Of a stretch of DNA of 64,000 nt, positions 10,906-33,099 are shown one piece after another. The translations under genes and the position numbers were made by a program. The stretch lies in the NCBI GenBank assembly GCA_016190145.1, contig JACPRD010000137.1, positions 1-64,000 of the forward strand. Reading direction: 5' to 3'. A model generated the notes under the pieces. It was not told where the DNA came from, ran no database searches, and saw only the letters and a program-made list of their open reading frames with translations. The first letter of the stretch is position 1. Every line of letters begins with the position of its first letter. The DNA is from Planctomycetota bacterium (GTDB taxonomy: Bacteria; Planctomycetota; MHYJ01; WSZJ01).

Positions 10906-11808
10906 TTACTTCTTCTCCAATTCCGCCTGGATCGCCTTCAGCGGCCCTTCCTCCGTCACTTTCACCTTCGGCTCGAACCGCGCCACCACCTTGCCCTCCC
11001 GGCTCACCAGGAACTTCGTGAAGTTCCACTTGATGTCGCCCGAGAAGCCGGCGTTCGTCTTCTCGCCCGTCAGATAACTGTAGAGCGGGTGCATTCCGTC
11101 ACCCTTCACGACGATCTTCGAGAACATCGGAAACGTCACCCGGTATGTCTTCTCACAGAAGTCCCGGATCTCCTTCTCCGTCCCCGGCTCCTGCCCGCCG
11201 AACTCGTTGGCGGGGAAGCCCAGCACCACCAGCCCTTTCTCTGAATTCTCCGCGTACAGCTCCTCCAGGTCCTTGTACTGCGGCGTCAGCCCGCACTTCG
11301 ACGCGACGTTCACGATCAGCACCACCTTGCCCTTGAACTCCGCGAGCTTCACGTCCTTGCCCTCGATGTCCTTCATCGTGAACCCGAGCACTCCCTCCTC
11401 CTCTCCGAGCGTCGCCCCCGGCGCGGACGGCTTGCCGGCCTTCTCCCACCCCTCCAGCCCGATCGGGAACACCCGTACGTTCGTGTATCCGAAGCCGACG
11501 GCACGGTCGGCAGCCTTGTGGCAGGAATGTCAGCCTTCGTTCATGCAGTAGAAGACGACCGCCGCCCCCTTGTCCGCGGGCAGGTCCGACGCCTCGTACT
11601 TCACCGCGTTCAGCCAGGTCGCCCCCGGCAGGCGCCGCTTCTCGAACACGAACTTCGGATTGTTGTCGATGACCGTCGCCTTCTTCTCCCTGATCAGCGT
11701 CTCGAGCTCGTCGATCCCGATGTCGGTCCACCCGCTTTTCCTCTCGTCGCACGCCGCGATCGCGGCGCTGAACAGGAGGAGCGCGGGGAGCCAGGCGGAC
11801 GTGCGCAT
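10906..11808 (-). CDS. Probable selenoprotein: rhodanese-like domain fused to glutathione peroxidase
   Basis: One frame runs from the ATG at 11808 (AGGAG nine bases upstream) to the TAA at 10906, interrupted only by UGA at 11532-11530. Read as selenocysteine, the protein has 300 residues. It has a lipoprotein signal (lipobox Cys20), a rhodanese-like domain with active loop YCMNEG-U93-HSCHKAA (Cys88, Sec93, Cys96), and a glutathione-peroxidase/redoxin domain with NVASKCG (Cys172), FGGQEPG (Gln206) and WNFTKF (Trp261-Asn262). The sequence after the UGA keeps rhodanese character (VRVFPIGLEGWEKAGKP), so the stop falls inside the domain where relatives usually have Cys. A SECIS-like hairpin lies 19-36 bases downstream. 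Role inferred: periplasmic, membrane-anchored peroxide or persulfide reduction. Alternative: a nonsense-mutated gene, but the conserved downstream half argues against it. Confidence 0.8.
11494..11511 (-). promoter_or_regulatory. Bacterial SECIS-like hairpin in the rhodanese-GPx mRNA
   Basis: Counting from the base after the UGA, bases 19-36 form GCCGAC-CGUGCC-GUCGGC, a perfect six-pair stem with a six-base loop. The second loop base is G (base 26 after the UGA). The published bacterial SECIS pattern asks for a 3-14-base loop, a G among its first two bases, and 16-37 bases between UGA and that G; all are met. Folding was judged by eye. Confidence 0.75.
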
Positions 11809-12027: not shown

Positions 12028-13077
12028 ATGCGCGAGTTCACCCCGCTGACCGACGGCGCCGACTTCAAGGAAGTCCTTTACGACAAGAAGGACGGCGTCG
12101 CGACGATCACGATCAACCGCCCCCAGAACCACAACGCCTACTCCACCCGCGCCCTCCGCGAACTCGCCCGCGCGTTCGAGGACGCCGGCTGGGACGACCG
12201 CGTGGCCGCCGTCGTCTATACCGGCGCGGGCGAGCGCGCCTTCTGCACCGGCGGCGACGTCAAGGAGTACGCCGAGGTCTACGTGCAGCGCCCCCGCGAC
12301 TACTGGAAGTACATGAGCTGCTTCCGCGCGTACATCGAGTCCATCATGCACTGCCCCAAGCCCGTCATCGCCCGCATCAACGGCATCGCGGCCGGCGGCG
12401 GCAACGAGTCCCAGCTCGCCTGCGACCTCGCCGTCATCGCCGAACACGCCTGGGTCGGACAGGTCGGCACTTCCGTCGGCTCCGTCGCCTGCGGCGGCGC
12501 CACCCAGTGGCTCCCCCTCGTCGTCGGCGACCGCCGCGCCCGCGAGATGCTCATGATGAACCCGCGCATTCCGGCGCGCAAGGCGCTCGAGTGGGGCCTC
12601 GTGAACGCCGTCGCGCCGTCCGTCACGCGCGCCGGTCAGTTCGTCGACAACCCGACCGACGAGCAGGCGAAACTCGCCCTCGACAGGAAGGACGGCTGGG
12701 CCATCGACCTCTCCCGCCTCGACGCGAAAGTCGCCGAGTACGTGAAAAACCTGAAGGAGAAGTTCCCGGAGTGCCTCCGCTACACCAAGATCCAGACGAA
12801 CCAGAACAAGGAGGCCGTCTGGCACGCCACCGTCGGACACGCCCAGGACTGGCTCGCCCTGCATTTCACATCCCCCGAACCCCAGGAGGGCATGCGCGCG
12901 TTCGCCGAAAAACGGAAGACGAATTACGCGGGGATGCGCGCGAAATGGGCCGAGGACGCGTCGCCGGAATATCCGTTCGGGCCGCCGGTGGGGGCGTGTC
13001 CGAAATGCAACGCGAAAGGAATCCCGGGGCAGTTCAAGTTCTGCGGGGTGTGCGGGCATGAGCTCCCCCGGACCTAG
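12028..13077 (+). CDS. oah: 6-oxocyclohex-1-ene-1-carbonyl-CoA hydrolase (ring-opening), with C-terminal zinc ribbon
   Basis: 349 residues of the crotonase fold. It adds water to 6-oxocyclohex-1-ene-1-carbonyl-CoA and cleaves the ring to 3-hydroxypimelyl-CoA, the ring-opening step of anaerobic benzoyl-CoA catabolism. Visible motifs: AFCTGGDVKEYAE (residues 71-83), INGIAAGGGNESQLACDL (118-135) and GQVGTSVGSVACGGATQW, which match Oah/BamA more than ordinary enoyl-CoA hydratases. The long C-terminal region typical of Oah is present. It ends in a zinc-ribbon-like tail with Cys324, Cys327, Cys339 and Cys342. GGAG lies six bases before the ATG. The gene overlaps the next SDR gene by 20 bases, followed by dch, so they form one transcription unit. 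Confidence 0.88.
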   Translation: MREFTPLTDGADFKEVLYDKKDGVATITINRPQNHNAYSTRALRELARAFEDAGWDDRVAAVVYTGAGERAFCTGGDVKEYAEVYVQRPRDYWKYMSCFRAYIESIMHCPKPVIARINGIAAGGGNESQLACDLAVIAEHAWVGQVGTSVGSVACGGATQWLPLVVGDRRAREMLMMNPRIPARKALEWGLVNAVAPSVTRAGQFVDNPTDEQAKLALDRKDGWAIDLSRLDAKVAEYVKNLKEKFPECLRYTKIQTNQNKEAVWHATVGHAQDWLALHFTSPEPQEGMRAFAEKRKTNYAGMRAKWAEDASPEYPFGPPVGACPKCNAKGIPGQFKFCGVCGHELPRT

Positions 13078-13744
13078 GGGCGCGATCGTGACCGGAGGCG
13101 CCTCGGGAATCGGGGCGGCGGCCGCGCGTTCGCTCGCGCGGGACGGGTTCGAGGTCGTGACGGTGGACCTCGACAGGCGGGCGCGCGTGCAGGGGGACGT
13201 GCGGAACCCCGAGACCGTGCTCCGGGCCCTCGACGTCCTCAAGACTCCTGTGTACGCGCTCGTGAACTGCGCGGGGGCGGCACGGCCGGGCCCCGTGCAG
13301 GGGCTGTCCCGCGAGGACTGGGACGGCGTGCTCGGCGTGGACCTGACCGGCGCGTTCCTGTTCATCCGTGAAGTGGCCCCGCGCATGGCCGAGGCCGGCG
13401 GCGGGCGGATCGTCAACGTCGCCGCTACGATCGGGCTCCGGGCCCGGCGCGGCGCCGCGGCGCACGCGGCGGCGAAAGCGGGGCTCGTCGGCCTCACCCG
13501 CGCTTCCGCCCGCGACCTCGGCCGGCGCAACATCAACGTGAACGCGGTCGCGCCGGGAGTGGTGGAGACGGCGATGACGGCCGATCTCCCGGCGGAAAAG
13601 AAGAAGGAGCTGGCGGAGGAGACGTGCCTCGGGCGCGTGGCGCAGCCGGAGGATGTGGCGGACGTGATCGCGTTCCTGTGCGGCCCGGGCGCGCGGCATA
13701 TCACGGGGGAAGTCATCCGGGTCGACGGAGGGCAGCTCGCATGA
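13058..13744 (+). CDS. SDR-fold protein lacking the catalytic Ser and Tyr
   Basis: 228 residues with an intact Rossmann cofactor motif (TGGASGIG, residues 12-19), LVNCAGAARPGP, the usual IxVNAVAPG and C-terminal HITGEVIRVDGG of classical short-chain dehydrogenases. The catalytic line is altered: where FabG-type enzymes have Ser and Tyr, this protein has Ala123 (VNVAATIG) and His136 (AAHAAAKAG); only the Lys (140) of YxxxK remains. It starts inside oah and its stop overlaps dch by ATGA, so it is translationally coupled to two benzoyl-CoA pathway genes. It may have an altered mechanism, a cofactor-binding role, or be a subunit. A normal ketoacyl reductase activity is unlikely. Confidence 0.8.
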   Translation: MSSPGPRGAIVTGGASGIGAAAARSLARDGFEVVTVDLDRRARVQGDVRNPETVLRALDVLKTPVYALVNCAGAARPGPVQGLSREDWDGVLGVDLTGAFLFIREVAPRMAEAGGGRIVNVAATIGLRARRGAAAHAAAKAGLVGLTRASARDLGRRNINVNAVAPGVVETAMTADLPAEKKKELAEETCLGRVAQPEDVADVIAFLCGPGARHITGEVIRVDGGQLA

Positions 13745-14499
13745 GCCTGGTCCAGGTGGAACGCGCCGGCGGCATCGTCCGGCTGACCGTCTCGAATCCG
13801 CCGCTCAACATCCTGACGTGCGGCGTGATGCAGGAGCTCACGGCGGCGCTCGGCGGAATCGAGCGCGGAGAGCGCGCGGTCGTGATCCGAGGGGCGGGGA
13901 AGCACTTCTCGGCGGGGGCGGACATCGGGGAGCACCTGCCTGAGAAGGGGCCGGCGATGCTCGAGACCCTGCTCGCGCTGTTCAATGCGCTTCATGAGGT
14001 CCCGATTCCGACCGTGGCCGTCGTTCGGGGGGCGTGCATGGGTGCGGGGCTCGAACTCGCGGCGGCGTGCGACCTCCTGGTGGCGGCGGAGGAGGCGAAG
14101 CTGGGGGTGCCGGAGATCACGCTGGGGGTGATGCCGCCGATCGCGGCGGTGGATCTGCCCCGGAAGATCGGCGCGGCGCGCGCGGCGGAGCTGCTCTACC
14201 TGGGCAAGACGATCAGCGGCAAGACGGCGGGGGAGTGGGGCCTCGCGAACGAAACGGCCCCTGACGCCGAGCTCGACGCCCGCGCCGAAGCTCTCGCCGG
14301 CCGCCTCGCGGGCTTTTCCGGAGCCGCCCTCCGCGCCTGCAAGCGCGCCGTGCAGTCCGCGGCGCAGCGGCCGATCTACTGCGACGCGCTCGCTTCCGCG
14401 ATCCGGGTCTACCATGACGACGTCCTGCCGAGCGAGGATGGGCTGGAGGGGTTGAGGGCATTTCTGGAGAAGCGGAAGGCCGTGTGGAAGGAGAGGTAG
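13741..14499 (+). CDS. dch: Cyclohexa-1,5-diene-1-carbonyl-CoA hydratase
   Basis: 252 residues, crotonase family. It hydrates the cyclic diene made by benzoyl-CoA reductase to 6-hydroxycyclohex-1-ene-1-carbonyl-CoA. The segment KHFSAGADIGEHLPEKGPAM (residues 54-73) resembles Dch of Thauera (HFSFGASVEEHLP, from memory), and VPEITLGVMPPIAA resembles its QPEIKLGVFAPAAS. The oxyanion-hole motif GACMGAGLELAAACD is present. The ATG overlaps the SDR stop (ATGA at 13741-13744). The next gene, had, acts on the product and lies across a 235-base spacer with a foldback repeat. Confidence comes both from the family-specific EHLP and EITLGV stretches and from the neighbours. Confidence 0.87.
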   Translation: MSLVQVERAGGIVRLTVSNPPLNILTCGVMQELTAALGGIERGERAVVIRGAGKHFSAGADIGEHLPEKGPAMLETLLALFNALHEVPIPTVAVVRGACMGAGLELAAACDLLVAAEEAKLGVPEITLGVMPPIAAVDLPRKIGAARAAELLYLGKTISGKTAGEWGLANETAPDAELDARAEALAGRLAGFSGAALRACKRAVQSAAQRPIYCDALASAIRVYHDDVLPSEDGLEGLRAFLEKRKAVWKER

Positions 14500-14510
14500 G
14501 GGCCCCTGGT

Positions 14511-14705
14511 GGGCAACTACAAAGAGAGAACTTCAAAGGCAAAGTAAACTCGGGAAGGACAACTTCAAACGACAAGGGCCCGCCTATTTTCGCGACTCAC
14601 GGCGAGATTCGGGCGGGTTCAATTCTTCACGGGACAGCCCCTTGTCCTTTGAAGTTGTCACTTTGAAGTTACTTTGCCTTTGAAGTTCTTCCTTTGAAGT
14701 TACGC
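14511..14705. repeat. Long foldback element with tandem AACTTCAAAG units between dch and had
   Basis: The left arm (14511-14578) and right arm (14638-14705) are near-complementary over ~65 bases. The reverse complement of the right arm reads GAACTTCAAAGGCAAAGTAA where the left arm reads GAACTTCAAAGGCAAAGTAA, with unit substitutions elsewhere. Four TTTGAAGTT units on the right start at 14648, 14662, 14679 and 14693. The arms enclose a ~60-base G+C-richer loop. As RNA this would form a very stable hairpin just before had. Confidence 0.75.
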
Positions 14706-14734
14706 GTGACCGCCCGATTCATGAGGAACCACCG

Positions 14735-15766
14735 ATGAAAGCAGCCATCTATTCCGGCACCGGCCACAACCTTGAAATCAGGGACATCCCGACGCCCGAT
14801 CCGAAGCCCGGCGAAGCCCGCGTCAAGGTCGCCGCCTGCGGCCTCTGCCACACCGATCTCCATTACCTCGACCACGGCGTCCCGACGTTCAAGAAGCCGC
14901 CGATCATCCTCGGGCACGAGCCGGCGGGCCACGTCGACGCGCTCGGCGCGGGCGTCGAAGGCCTCAAACCCGGACAGGCCGTCCTGCTCCCCGCGGTCTT
15001 CACCTGCGGCGAGTGCGCCATGTGCAAAACGGGGCGCTCGAACATCTGCGAGAAGATGCAGATGCTGGGCAACCACATCGACGGCGCGTTCGCCGAGTAC
15101 GTCTGCGTCCGCGCCCGCGACATCATCCCGCTTCCCCCCGGCATCGACGTCGTCGAAGCCTCGATCGTCGCGGACGCGGTGACGACGGCGTACCACGCGG
15201 TGACGCACCGGGCGCAGGTGCGGCCGGGCGAGCGCATCGCGATCTTCGGCTGCGGCGGGGTCGGGCTCTCTGCGGTGCAGTTCGCGGCGCTCGCGGGCGC
15301 GTTCGTGTACGCGGTGGACCTGGACGAGGGAAAGCTGGCGCTCGCGAAGGAGCTGGGGGCGTTCGAGGCGATCAACGCGAAGACGGACCCGGACGCGGCG
15401 AAGACGATCAAGAAGAAGACGGGCGGCGGGGTGGACAAGGCCATGGAGTGCATCGGCAACCCCGTCACGATCAAGGCCGCGCACACCTCCGTCCGGAACG
15501 GCGGCCGCCTCGTCATCGTCGGCTACTGCGACAAGCCCGTCGAGATGGCCGTGAACAAAATCATGTTCATGGAGCAGGAAGTCATGGGCTCGCTCGGCTG
15601 CCGACCCGTCGACTTCCCGAAGGTCCTCGACCTCTGCGCCGCGGGCCGCTACAGGCTCGCGCCGCTCGTGACGTCGCGGAGACCGCTGGAGAAGGTGAAC
15701 GAAGCGTTCGACGAGCTGCGCGCCGGCAAGTCGGTGCGGAGCGTGGTGATTCCGGGGATGAAATAG
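14735..15766 (+). CDS. had: 6-hydroxycyclohex-1-ene-1-carbonyl-CoA dehydrogenase
   Basis: 343 residues, zinc-dependent medium-chain dehydrogenase. It oxidises the 6-hydroxy group to 6-oxocyclohex-1-ene-1-carbonyl-CoA with NAD, supplying the substrate of Oah. Catalytic zinc ligands Cys38 (ACGLCHTDLHY), His61-Glu62 (LGHEPAG) and the structural zinc cysteines 91, 94, 97 and 105 (CGECAMCKTGRSNIC) are all present. The nucleotide motif FGCGGVGLSAVQFA is intact. The family alone could be any alcohol dehydrogenase; the specific call rests on overall similarity to Had and on co-location with dch, oah and bzdNOPQ. GAGGA lies seven bases before the ATG. It is probably co-expressed with oah-dch unless the foldback in between stops transcription. 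Confidence 0.82.
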   Translation: MKAAIYSGTGHNLEIRDIPTPDPKPGEARVKVAACGLCHTDLHYLDHGVPTFKKPPIILGHEPAGHVDALGAGVEGLKPGQAVLLPAVFTCGECAMCKTGRSNICEKMQMLGNHIDGAFAEYVCVRARDIIPLPPGIDVVEASIVADAVTTAYHAVTHRAQVRPGERIAIFGCGGVGLSAVQFAALAGAFVYAVDLDEGKLALAKELGAFEAINAKTDPDAAKTIKKKTGGGVDKAMECIGNPVTIKAAHTSVRNGGRLVIVGYCDKPVEMAVNKIMFMEQEVMGSLGCRPVDFPKVLDLCAAGRYRLAPLVTSRRPLEKVNEAFDELRAGKSVRSVVIPGMK

Positions 15767-29020: not shown

Positions 29021-29836
29021 CTACCCGGCGGCCGCCGCCGCCTGCTCCGCCAGACGCTTTTTCGCGCGCTGCAGCCCGAGCGTCGCGGCTCCGAGCGCGC
29101 ACACGTACTGCGGGAACTCCGGCACGATCACCGGAACTCCGAATTTCCGTTTCGCCGCCTCCACCATCCCCTGCTGCACCATGACGCCGCCGACGAGCGC
29201 GATCGTGCCGGCCAGGCCCACCTTTTTCAGCTGCCCGAACGCGCGCTCGGCCATCGAATCGTGCAGGCCGCGGACGATGTCCTCGATCGCGATGCCGTCG
29301 GAGACGTGGTTGATGATCTCGGACTCCGCCAGCACCGCGCACACGCTCGAGATCGGCTTGCCGCCTTTCGACTCCAGCGACCGCGTCCCCATCGTGTCGA
29401 GCGGGATCTCCAGGTACTTCGCCGCGCGCACGAGGAACGCCCCGCCGCCCGCGGCGCATTTTTCGTTGCAATGGAAGTCCTTCACCTTGCCGTTGTCGCG
29501 CAGCCGGATCGCGCGCGTGCTCTGCGCCCCGATATCGAGCACCCATCCCGCCTCGGGCGCCGAGACCCACGCGCCGCGCGCGGCCGCCGTGATCTCGGTG
29601 ACCTGGATGTCCCGGAACCTCACCGCGTACCGGCCCAGCCCCGTCGTCGTCGTGTATGCGACGTCCGAGCCCTGCAGCCCCGCCGCAGCCAGCGCCCGGT
29701 CCCGCACGTCCCGCGCGATCGCGTCGAAGTCGGCCTTCGTCTTGCCCTCCGCGCGGCCGAGCACCCGGCCGTCTTCCCTGAGGAGAAGTGCCTTCGCGCT
29801 TCCGCTTCCGACGTCGATTCCGGCGACGATGAGCAT
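29021..29836 (-). CDS. bzdQ: Benzoyl-CoA reductase, ATPase/activator subunit (BzdQ-like)
   Basis: 271 residues of the BadF/BcrA ASKHA ATPase family. Visible motifs are the phosphate-binding IDVGSGSAKALLL (residues 7-19), the iron-sulfur/ATP region NEKCAAGGGAFL, SVCAVLAESEIINHV, and the C-terminal LVGGVMVQQG. Two such subunits share a [4Fe-4S] cluster and use ATP hydrolysis to drive electrons into the BzdN-BzdO catalytic part. The compact size (~30 kDa) fits the Azoarcus (Bzd) type; BcrA of Thauera is ~440 residues. The start overlaps nothing but directly abuts the bzdP stop (29837). The second phosphate loop residue is Ser rather than Thr, as tolerated in the family. A terminator follows. Confidence 0.82.
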   Translation of the reverse strand: MLIVAGIDVGSGSAKALLLREDGRVLGRAEGKTKADFDAIARDVRDRALAAAGLQGSDVAYTTTTGLGRYAVRFRDIQVTEITAAARGAWVSAPEAGWVLDIGAQSTRAIRLRDNGKVKDFHCNEKCAAGGGAFLVRAAKYLEIPLDTMGTRSLESKGGKPISSVCAVLAESEIINHVSDGIAIEDIVRGLHDSMAERAFGQLKKVGLAGTIALVGGVMVQQGMVEAAKRKFGVPVIVPEFPQYVCALGAATLGLQRAKKRLAEQAAAAAG

Positions 29837-30682
29837 CTACTGGCCCTCCCCGCTGCCGTCCGTCCAGCCGCCCAGGTGCGCCTGCGCGTGCTCGTGGCTC
29901 GCCGCCTCCGCGCGCTCGATCGCGAAGAGCGCCGCGCCGATCGCGCCCATGAAATGCGACTCCGAGCTCACGTTGAGCGGCGCCTTCAGCTTCTCCTCCA
30001 GCGCATTCACCATTCCGATGTTCCGCGCGACGCCGCCCGTCATCGAGTACTCCGCTTCCATCCCGATGCGCTGAAGCAGCGACATCGTGCGCGCGGCGAT
30101 GGCGCGGTGCACGCCCGCGAGGATGTCGGGGGGCATGCGGCCCTGGGAGAGGTAGCTCATGATGTCGCTTTCGACGAAGACCGTGCAGACCGTCGAGAGC
30201 CGGACGGGGTCTTTGCCCTCGAGGGAGAGCGCGCCGATCTTTTCGAGCGGAAGGTCCAGCACCTCGGCGGAGGCCGTCAGGAACCGCCCCGTTCCCGCCG
30301 CGCACTTGTCGTTCATCGCGAAGTCCACGACCTCGCCGCTCGCGCCCACGCGGATCGCCTTCGTGTCCTGGCCGCCGATGTCGATGACCGTCCGGGTGCC
30401 GGGGAACATGAAATGCGCGCCGCGCGCATGGCAGGAGATCTCGGTGATCTGCGCGTCGCCGAAGTTCACCTTGTAGCGGCCGTAGCCGGTGCCGACGACG
30501 TACTTCACCTTCTCGCGCGCGAGCCCCACGGACGCCAGCGCCTCGACGAAGCTCCGCTCGGCCGCCTTCACCACCATCGCGCCCGTCTGGATCAGCGACC
30601 GCGCCACGATCGCGCGGCTCCCGTCCATCACGACCGCCTTCGTCTGCGTCGAGCCGACGTCCACTCCCGCCGCGTAGATCAT
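29837..30682 (-). CDS. bzdP: Benzoyl-CoA reductase, ATPase/activator subunit (BzdP-like)
   Basis: 281 residues, BadF/BcrA family, paralogous to the next gene. It has [13 protein letters not shown] (residues 7-19), [25 protein letters not shown] with the cluster Cys, [15 protein letters not shown] with the second Cys, and [19 protein letters not shown] is the hallmark of 2-hydroxyacyl-CoA dehydratase and benzoyl-CoA reductase activators. With BzdQ it forms the ATP-hydrolysing electron-activation module. It starts one base after bzdO ends and runs straight into bzdQ, so all four genes are tightly coupled. Alternative: the activator of a 2-hydroxyglutaryl-CoA dehydratase, made unlikely by dch, had and oah in the same window. 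Confidence 0.83.
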
Positions 30683-30683
30683 C

Positions 30684-31934
30684 TCACGCCCTCCGGAGCA
30701 GCTTGCGGTGCTCGAGCGACTCGAAGAACGCGTCGATCCGGTTCTTCATCATCGCCTGCGCGTAATAGCGGGGATCCTCCAGGTCCGATTCCACGAGCAG
30801 CGTCGGGACGCCGAGCTGGTTCGCGAAGTAGTCCCGCATGTCGCCCTGCCCCGCCGAGAACAGCCGGCAGCTCTTCACCGAGTGAATCACCAGCGCGTCC
30901 GCCTTCCACTCCTCCACGTACCGCTTGATCTGCTCGTACCGCTGCAGCAGCGACCGGTTGCACAGGTTGTTCACCAGCATCAGCTCCGCGATGCTCTCGA
31001 GTGGCCTCTTCGGATCGTGCCGGAACCCCCACTCCCAGATCCCGCCCACCGTCGAGTACGTCGACTGCACCGCCACGGCGCCCCAGGCCGCGAACAGGTC
31101 GCGGAACTGCCGGTAGTACGGGTACGGCGGCGGCCCCTCCACCACGATCCGGAACTTCTCCTGCGCCAGCGGCCCCTTCTTCGCCGCCACCATCTCCTCG
31201 TACTCCTTCACCGCCGCGTCGAAGAAGTCCGCCGCGTCCTTCGTGCCCCGGAGCACGTTGATCGGGCCCATCATGTTGATCGAGTCGAAGTACGCGTCGA
31301 ACGGCGCCGGCGTGTTCTGGCACAGCTCCTTCGCCCTCGCCCAGCCCGCGCCCGCCCGCGCCGACAGCGCGCAGATCTCGCGCAGCCGGTCGATGTCAAA
31401 CTTCTTCCCCGTGACTTTCTCGCACGTCTCGATCAGCTTCCTGAGCTGCGCCACCACGTACCGCACGTCCCCCTCGGTCGGCTTCCCGTCGGGATGCAGG
31501 AACGGCACGTCGATCATGACCAGCGGCACCCCGAGGAAAGCCGCGCTGTGCTCGAACCACTTGATGTACACGTTGCAGCCGACGAAGTTGCAGACGAGGA
31601 AGTTCGGAACCGGGATCTTCCCGTCCGACGGTCCCCCCTCGCCGAACGTGTACCCCGCGTCCGCCTTCACGTACGCGCAGTTGTCGCTCGAGTAGCCCAT
31701 CTCCTCGGCCTTGAGGATGAGGGGAAGCGACTGCTTGCGGATGGCGAGCTGGAGGGCGTTGACTTCCGGGAACACCGGCTCGATGTCGAACGAGCGCAGG
31801 ATCTCGACGCAGTTCCCCGAGATCATGATGCAGGCCGAGGGCGTCCCGTTCTTCGCCGCCGCGGCGAGCCGGTCGTACCACGCGGACATGATCTCGCGCG
31901 ACTTCGTGTGGACGACGCCCTGGTATTCGGCCAT
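30684..31934 (-). CDS. bzdO: Benzoyl-CoA reductase, substrate-binding subunit (BzdO/BcrB-like)
   Basis: 416 residues, 2-hydroxyglutaryl-CoA dehydratase D-component/BcrB family. Conserved cysteines appear in [29 protein letters not shown] and, diagnostically, [20 protein letters not shown] near residue 345. Together with BzdN it binds [4Fe-4S] clusters and the CoA ester and carries out the two-electron ring reduction. Length and motifs match BcrB/BadE/BzdO (~430-450). It starts seven bases after bzdN and is followed immediately by bzdP: the N-O-P-Q order of Azoarcus, which also equals C-B-A-D of Thauera. Confidence 0.85.
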
Positions 31935-31941
31935 GGTCCCC

Positions 31942-33099
31942 CTAGTCGAAAAGAAGCGACTCCACGAACGTCTCGATCTCCCCGCGCGTCCGCTCGAACG
32001 TCCACATCTTCTCTTCGAACTCGATCAGGATGTGCGGGACGCCGGCCTTCTCGAGCTCGCGCCGGAAGAGCACGTAGTCGAACAGGGCGGGCTCGCAGAA
32101 TTTAGCGGGCATGAACACCACGGCCTGCGCCCCGGTGGATTTCACCCGCTCCACGAGCTCCAGGTGCCGCGGCCGGTCCGGGTCGTGCCGCGTCGAACTG
32201 CACCGCGACCGCGACAGGTACGCGCGGGCGAGGGCCCTCACCGGGTCGCCGGTCTCAATCACGTCTTCGCGGAACCAGCGCCAGCCCGCGCAGAAGTCGT
32301 CGTCCACCACGTAGCAGCCCGCGGCCTCCATGACGTCGATCAGCCCCACCGGGGGCTGCTCGCAGAACGCCCCCTCGACCACCACGCGCACGCGGTCCAT
32401 CCGCTTGTTCCGCCGCGTCGCGAACTCCGCGAGCGACCCTTCCAAAAGCGCCGCATGATCCTCCGGCGGCATGAACGTGCCCGCGCGCACGAGCGTGAAC
32501 GCCTCCGACGCCGTCACGCGCTCCGGCTCCCGCGCGCGGATTTCGTACAGCCGCCGCATCAGCGCCCGCGGCCGGTTGTACGTCCGGATGCTGGCCCGGA
32601 TCGCCTCGTCTCCGATCCTGCGCTTGAGCCGCTCCTCGAGCCCCGCCAGCGCCCGCCGGTACTCCGACACCAGGTAGTCCTCCGCCGCGTCTCCCGCGCC
32701 GTTCTGCGCGAGGTGGATGTACTCGACGTGCAGCCCGGGGAAATTCCGGCGGAACACGCTCGCGAGGTTCCGCGCGACGTCGCAGATCGAGTGGAACGCC
32801 ACGCCCTCGAGCGCCGTCAGCCGCTTCTGCAGCCCCAGCTCGAGCGTCGTCTTGGCGATGGAGCAGACGAAGCTCTGGAAGCGCGCGTCGGCGTGGACGA
32901 TGTCGATGGTTCCTCCGGCGCCCATGAGGCCGAGGGGCAGGAGGCCGGCCGCGTGATAGAGCTCGAAGGGGGAGTAGACGGGGAAGCATCCGAACGCGGG
33001 TCCCGGGTGCCGCCGGATCGCATCGGGGAGTCCCGCGGCGCAGATCTCTTTCGCCCGGGCCACGGGCGAGGTCGCGACGGCCGTGATTGCGGTGTTCAC
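31942..33099 (-). CDS. bzdN: Benzoyl-CoA reductase, iron-sulfur subunit (BzdN/BcrC-like)
   Basis: 385 residues, same family as BzdO and matching BcrC/BadD/BzdN in length. Candidate cluster ligands are Cys38 (FGCFPVYSPFELYHAAG), Cys79 (SFVCSIAK) and Cys335 (KFCEPALFDY). It pairs with BzdO to form the catalytic half of class I, ATP-dependent, oxygen-sensitive benzoyl-CoA reductase, reducing benzoyl-CoA to cyclohexa-1,5-diene-1-carbonyl-CoA. It is the first gene of bzdNOPQ and lies 100 bases after a MarR-type regulator gene on the same strand. No ferredoxin (bzdM) or ferredoxin-reducing enzyme is encoded in the window, so the electron donor must be elsewhere. Confidence 0.83.
   Translation of the reverse strand: MNTAITAVATSPVARAKEICAAGLPDAIRRHPGPAFGCFPVYSPFELYHAAGLLPLGLMGAGGTIDIVHADARFQSFVCSIAKTTLELGLQKRLTALEGVAFHSICDVARNLASVFRRNFPGLHVEYIHLAQNGAGDAAEDYLVSEYRRALAGLEERLKRRIGDEAIRASIRTYNRPRALMRRLYEIRAREPERVTASEAFTLVRAGTFMPPEDHAALLEGSLAEFATRRNKRMDRVRVVVEGAFCEQPPVGLIDVMEAAGCYVVDDDFCAGWRWFREDVIETGDPVRALARAYLSRSRCSSTRHDPDRPRHLELVERVKSTGAQAVVFMPAKFCEPALFDYVLFRRELEKAGVPHILIEFEEKMWTFERTRGEIETFVESLLFD

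Follow-up and report, generated by a model that had tools for sequence, protein, structure and literature searches.

A probable selenocysteine-containing rhodanese-like domain fused to a Cys-type glutathione peroxidase in a genus of Planctomycetota

The stretch of planctomycete DNA analysed here (64,000 nucleotides, hereafter the window) carries on its minus strand a reading frame in which a rhodanese-like domain precedes a Cys-type glutathione peroxidase (GPx) domain. The frame has a single internal stop, a TGA at 11532-11530 (codon 93), in the context FYCMNEG-U-HSCHKAA; the initial annotation, which had placed it within the rhodanese loop as the sole break in the frame, was accurate to the base. 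Standard gene calling would cut the gene at this codon, such that both the putative selenoprotein and the fusion would be missed. The features of the locus are as follows.

10906..11808 (-): rhodanese-GPx fusion gene, 300 codons, codon 93 being UGA (putative selenocysteine, Sec), stop TAA
11749..11808 (-): predicted signal peptide, with a lipobox-like IAAC at its end (C20) in the window copy
11425..11730 (-): rhodanese-like domain, residues 27-128, assigned by Pfam, AlphaFold2 (pLDDT 94) and fold search
11545..11547 (-): C88, the canonical rhodanese-loop cysteine, following strand 83-87 in the model, invariant in 37 aligned rows
11530..11532 (-): in-frame UGA, putative Sec93, Cys in the paralogue and in homologues
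11521..11523 (-): C96, completing a UxxC motif, Cys in 14/14 UGA genes and 2/23 Cys genes
11494..11511 (-): SECIS-like hairpin GCCGAC-CGUGCC-GUCGGC, nucleotides 19-36 after the UGA
10909..11391 (-): Cys-type GPx domain, residues 140-300, assigned by Pfam, alignment to Hyr1 and fold search
11293..11295 (-): C172, candidate peroxidatic cysteine (SKCG), aligned to the SKCG of Hyr1, invariant in five fusions
11155..11157 (-): C218, candidate resolving cysteine, aligned to the FCQ cysteine of Hyr1, invariant in five fusions

Both halves are recognised by Pfam, the first as Rhodanese (PF00581, residues 33-123, 37.3 bits against a gathering cut-off of 22.2) and the second as GSHPx (PF00255, residues 142-246, 137.5 bits against a cut-off of 27). 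The AlphaFold2 model of the full-length protein (mean pLDDT 90, pTM 0.71) has two confident domains, the mutual placement of which is uncertain. Since a fold search with the full-length model lists GPx structures only, the rhodanese domain was also predicted and searched alone, giving a pLDDT of 94 and matches to rhodanese structures with Z up to 17.2 (100 residues, rmsd 1.3); among the GPx structures matched by the second domain, the highest Z is 26.5 (158 residues, rmsd 1.5). By sequence the latter domain is closest to yeast Hyr1, the SKCG and FCQ cysteines of which are peroxidatic and resolving, respectively. The Pfam match and the alignment of C172 with the SKCG motif bear out the proposal that the fused peroxidase is of the Cys type. 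In the model of the rhodanese half, strand 83-87 leads into a loop (residues 88-94) and then a helix (residues 95-105), such that Sec93 closes the loop and C96 lies in the first turn of the helix; C88 is at the position where rhodaneses hold their catalytic cysteine. The suggestion that Sec replaces the redox cysteine of the rhodanese thus requires modification, in that the classical catalytic residue is C88, with Sec93 being a second chalcogen in the loop that forms a UxxC motif with C96.

The fusion was initially described as a lipoprotein. By the general lipobox rule, the IAAC of the window copy is consistent with this description, but it is absent from the other four fusions (three UGA-containing orthologues and a Cys paralogue), all of which have signal peptides without a following cysteine. 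Membrane anchoring is therefore not a trait of the family, whereas export of all five fusions is likely.

Searches of five genomes of the same genus identified five copies of the fusion in four of them, with none being found in the fifth (G200). Three congeners (G115, G280 and G222) have the same fusion, with 68-71% protein identity, a TGA at the same codon (hence in 4/4 genus loci of the orthologue) and the motif FYCMN[ED]xUH[ST]CHxAADRxVGFGYT. A pilus-type gene neighbours the gene in the window and in 3/3 UGA orthologues, and divergent crotonase/ADH genes do so in 2/3. One genome, G280, encodes a second, uninterrupted copy of the fusion, with TGC at the Sec93 codon (FYCANEKCHACH), at a different place outside the shared neighbourhood. 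The presence of Sec and Cys versions at separate places in one genome (G280:C239:3620-4522, L057, and G280:C333, L024) allows the question of what Sec buys to be asked within the same architecture. Across 392 genomes of the phylum, both whole halves of the fusion are covered, among the matches listed, in members of the genus only. A plasmid collection contained 189 records with a match, but in just one does the match extend over 80% or more of the query; the annotation there is of a GPx beside another gene.

A separate observation concerns the surroundings of the gene. The regions 12028-15766 (+) and 29021-33099 (-) of the window contain genes resembling those for 6-oxocyclohex-1-ene-1-carbonyl-CoA hydratase, cyclohexadienecarbonyl-CoA hydratase, 6-hydroxycyclohexene-carbonyl-CoA dehydrogenase and BcrA/B/C/D-type benzoyl-CoA reductase, all with matches below equivalog cut-offs; they can be read as encoding a divergent pathway of the ATP-dependent benzoyl-CoA type in this planctomycete, adjoining the peroxidase fusion.

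To place the rhodanese domain in a wider context, one genome per species was scanned with this domain as query, seeded by two peptide patterns, such that other motifs would be missed. Of the 37 loci obtained, four are the fusions (three with UGA, one with Cys) and the other 33 have no GPx signature in frame; ten of these 33 have UGA at the Sec93 codon and 23 have Cys. The ten stand-alone UGA forms come from Myxococcota groups/delta-proteobacteria (nine, including the three Polyangium records 6x1, y55x31 and 15x6) and from a bacterium named only as Proteobacteria. The expectation that homologues would have Cys at the UGA position is therefore realised, both in the G280 paralogue and in the 23 stand-alone Cys forms, with UGA itself recurring in the three congeners and ten other genomes. 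The residue three positions after the Sec/Cys column is Cys in 14/14 UGA genes, by contrast with 2/23 Cys genes (Fisher 2e-8, a value which, like the others of its kind, is indicative only because the compared genes are related and the sequences not independent). Thus, within the compared set, UGA accompanies the UxxC motif. When the Sec and +3 columns are masked, all 14 UGA rows fall, together with four Cys rows, in one supported set of 18 in the resulting tree. What results is a testable family of Sec and Cys forms, with the signature FYC[AM]N[DE]xUxxCH, to which sequences from named Polyangium strains belong. However, related Planctomycetota rhodaneses outside the pattern-seeded set (double-UGA forms) have Ser at +3, i.e. 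UxxS, and given this and the two-pattern seeding, UxxC should be regarded as a property of a subfamily rather than as universal.

Several relatives merit description in their own right. Five loci of the phylum family f30 (L144, L146, L147, L148 and L149) encode stand-alone rhodaneses with two in-frame UGAs in the motif FYUxGYxUNASTKAAR, i.e. with one predicted Sec at the catalytic position and another at the second position of the loop (UxxxxU), and with no TsoB-type DsbD part as far as the loci were read; L150 has a single UGA (CxxxxU). About 15 rows of the rhodanese listing are marked as having two TGAs. A Cys-form relative from Elusimicrobia bacterium RBG_16_66_12 (L117) has a second rhodanese-like stretch, FYCAAGVRAKRAA, behind the first in the same frame.

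The hairpin downstream of the UGA is exactly as initially described, both in its position and in having G as its second loop base; its loop begins at nucleotide 25 after the UGA. The bacterial SECIS (bSECIS) model specifies a loop of 3-9 nucleotides, a stem of 4-16 base pairs, G among the first two loop bases, a distance of 16-37 nucleotides from the UGA and a minimum free energy (MFE) of -7.5 or below (PMC13188914). The window hairpin, with an MFE of -9.4 kcal/mol, conforms to this model. Taken alone it is not striking: synonymous shuffling of the window gene yields a hairpin of at least 6 base pairs under strict criteria in 7.6% of trials, and across genes the corresponding figure ranges from 3 to 63%, depending on the gene, since the encoded peptide itself favours a hairpin. 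The strength of the evidence comes from recurrence. Among the 37 genes compared (the window copy plus every one of the 37 loci except L098, a Cys form that the motif expression failed to match), hairpins conforming to the model follow the relevant codon in 14/14 UGA genes, but in only 2/23 Cys homologues and at 235/2590 background codon positions (9.1%) of the same genes; with a stricter rule (at least 6 Watson-Crick pairs) the values are 12/14 and 2/23. The distance from the UGA to the start of the loop is 25-26 nucleotides for the planctomycete genes and 21-22 for the others, and the stem sequences differ between lineages, so that it is a structure that recurs rather than one common sequence. 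Across the four orthologues, codon conservation over the hairpin does not significantly exceed that of the remaining gene (values as high arose in 14,369 of 100,000 resamples), and was dropped as an independent proof.

The machinery for Sec insertion, the presence of which had been proposed as a check, is largely, though not completely, represented in the source genome (85.4% complete, 217 contigs). A selA gene (C12:162-1520, 547 bits) is over cut-off, and is followed 300 nucleotides behind by a gene for tRNA-Sec (selC) with anticodon TCA (C12:1841-1933). The selD gene (L019, G000:C181:15734-16657, 361 bits) has an in-frame TGA in the motif SSCAGUASK, at the usual Sec site of SelD, and so is itself a selenoprotein gene. 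The combination of selA, selC and selD that serves as the criterion for a bacterial selenoprotein is thus present in the genome itself. By contrast, a selB search of this 85%-complete assembly yielded no match above the cut-off, whereas such a gene passes it in four of the five genomes of the genus; the absence is tentatively read as an assembly gap. Matches of the selB search that were inspected in the same genome were rejected as candidates, being by sequence EF-Tu, IF-2, LepA and TypA. Proximity to selA as a reason for the absence was likewise ruled out, since selA was not found at the selB loci of the congeners. In the wider family, selA is over cut-off in 10/10 genomes with stand-alone UGA forms and in 16/23 genomes with Cys forms. 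Rfam and tRNA scans over the whole window gave no matches.

Together, the UGA/Cys alternation among homologues, the Sec machinery and the recurrent hairpin, which in all 14 UGA genes agrees with the SECIS criteria against which the initial annotation had asked for a check, support its central proposal of Sec insertion. It is thus very probable, from the sequence comparisons, that 10906-11808 encodes a full-length exported redox fusion with UGA 93 decoded as Sec. In mechanistic terms, SelB-tRNA-Sec would read UGA 93 as Sec, as directed by the hairpin 19-36 nucleotides downstream. In the mature protein, C172 would reduce a hydroperoxide and then form a disulfide with C218, as happens in yeast Hyr1/Gpx3. 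By means of C88, Sec93 and C96, the rhodanese loop may next serve as a built-in selenol-thiol reductase, its UxxC being located at a loop/helix boundary as in thioredoxins; the oxidation would be passed to Sec93-C96 as a selenenylsulfide, which would be reset by an exported thiol donor. An intramolecular relay of this type, from the rhodanese UxxC to the GPx disulfide, is a tentative proposal, somewhat short of an even chance. The composite proposal that the exported UxxC (Sec93-Cys96) acts directly on the peroxidatic centre of the fused GPx, by reduction or persulfidation, and that it represents an unreported UxxC class common to Planctomycetota and Myxococcota, is possible but still more speculative. 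If the relay operates, Sec sits in the recycling domain instead of in the peroxidase.

Sec may alternatively be inserted into a rhodanese that functions as a persulfide transferase, in which C88 would carry sulfane sulfur for release by Sec93/C96, while, in the cell envelope, the GPx would reduce persulfides or polysulfides or would itself be shielded by persulfidation. The location of C88 at the canonical sulfurtransferase position, its invariance in 37 rows and the presence among the closest folds of rhodanese domains fused to persulfide reductases (3ict, 3nta) and to a persulfide dioxygenase (5ve3) are all consistent with sulfur transfer. The classical rhodanese loop has the form CxxGxR, however, and that of the fusion is two residues longer; further, a pair such as Sec/C96 is characteristic of thiol-disulfide exchange. 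This combined scheme of transfer from C88 and an envelope role for the GPx is considered rather unlikely, if by no means negligible.

Other alternatives concern the decoding of UGA 93. Termination there would leave a short rhodanese fragment and require the peroxidase to start internally, at GTG 11472 or the ATG of codon 145, with the fusion being only apparent. A GTG-started open reading frame (10906-11472) does span the GPx domain, and all four UGA copies retain M145; but the 19 codons from the UGA to the GTG maintain the rhodanese sequence HxCHxAADRxVGFGYTxVxVF in all four species, no stop interrupts the fusion in the Cys paralogue, and the interrupting codon is always UGA, never UAA or UAG, in genomes with Sec machinery, all of which make an internal start very improbable. 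Read-through with another residue, e.g. Trp by near-cognate reading, is highly improbable, because the column is Cys and never Trp in 24/24 Cys-form rows, and because other genes of the window use UGA as a normal stop: it ends 11 of 30 long open reading frames (chosen by a crude codon-position filter), from which it follows that the genetic code is not simply changed. Although the assembly is fragmented (217 contigs), a nonsense mutation or assembly error is refuted by recurrence of the same codon in four genus genomes and ten further genomes, and can for practical purposes be dismissed.

Selenoproteins, including rhodanese selenoproteins, are established; an algal rhodanese-like selenoprotein, for example, is reportedly mentioned in one study (PMC7539508). 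The initial claim that no fusion of a Sec-rhodanese with a Cys-type GPx had been described is in accord with the literature searched, in the accessible main texts of which no rhodanese-GPx fusion selenoprotein was found; rhodanese selenoproteins as such, however, are not new. Rhodanese-related selenoproteins occur in earlier surveys (PMC2398784, PMC1088965, PMC9312934), and five forms, i.e. UxxS, UxxG, CxU, a further UxxG and UxxxxU, are listed in PMC13188914. Neither a UxxC rhodanese nor a GPx fusion appears in the relevant passages of the four papers, and the word rhodanese is absent from the main text of the deep-Sep paper (PMC12013277). The UxxC motif and the GPx-fusion architecture thus appear to be new.

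Form 1 of the listed rhodanese-like selenoproteins (PF00581, UxxS, WP_010941598.1) is likewise a rhodanese with a predicted Sec, with which its motif begins, but has Ser rather than Cys at +3 and is listed without a GPx fusion (PMC13188914); the two Sec sites are presumably equivalent. The best-matching Sec rhodanese model is that of TsoB (NF045694, rhodanese/DsbD fusion-like; 31.2 bits over residues 75-129), the UxxxxU spacing of which matches C88-x4-U93; the score is, however, far below the cut-off of 805, and TsoB has two Sec residues and a DsbD-like part instead of a GPx. The rhodanese_LYCAU model (NF041203, CxU) gives 21 bits, below its curated cut-off of 115. Residues 77-128 also match PQQ_CXXCW (TIGR03865, PQQ-dependent catabolism-associated CXXCW motif protein) with 43.2 bits, below the cut-off of 128.05; from its name, this family is presumably a Cys form without GPx. 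The stand-alone FYCAN[DE]xUxxCH rhodaneses, mostly from Myxococcota metagenome-assembled genomes and Polyangium isolates, have the same UGA codon, the UxxC motif and a SECIS-type hairpin, but differ in having no GPx signature in frame and in the sequence and position of the hairpin.

With respect to the peroxidase half, both GPx cysteines align with those of yeast Hyr1/Gpx3 (3cmi; fold Z 22.3, 138 residues, rmsd 1.2), although Hyr1/Gpx3 and other thioredoxin-dependent Cys-type GPx enzymes presumably have no rhodanese domain and are not exported. GPx matches with one in-frame TGA were observed in G136, G193, G068, G265, G120 (f30), G281, G117, G342 (f70) and G245, and probably represent GPx of the Sec type from other families of planctomycetes. 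In Sec-GPx enzymes, the selenocysteine occupies the active site of the peroxidase. The GPX-like selenoprotein (UxxT) listed in PMC13188914 belongs to the same GPx family. The window protein, by contrast, has Cys172 at the GPx site and its putative Sec in the fused domain, a comparison suggesting that bacteria may place Sec in a domain recycling a peroxidase, and not in the peroxidase itself.
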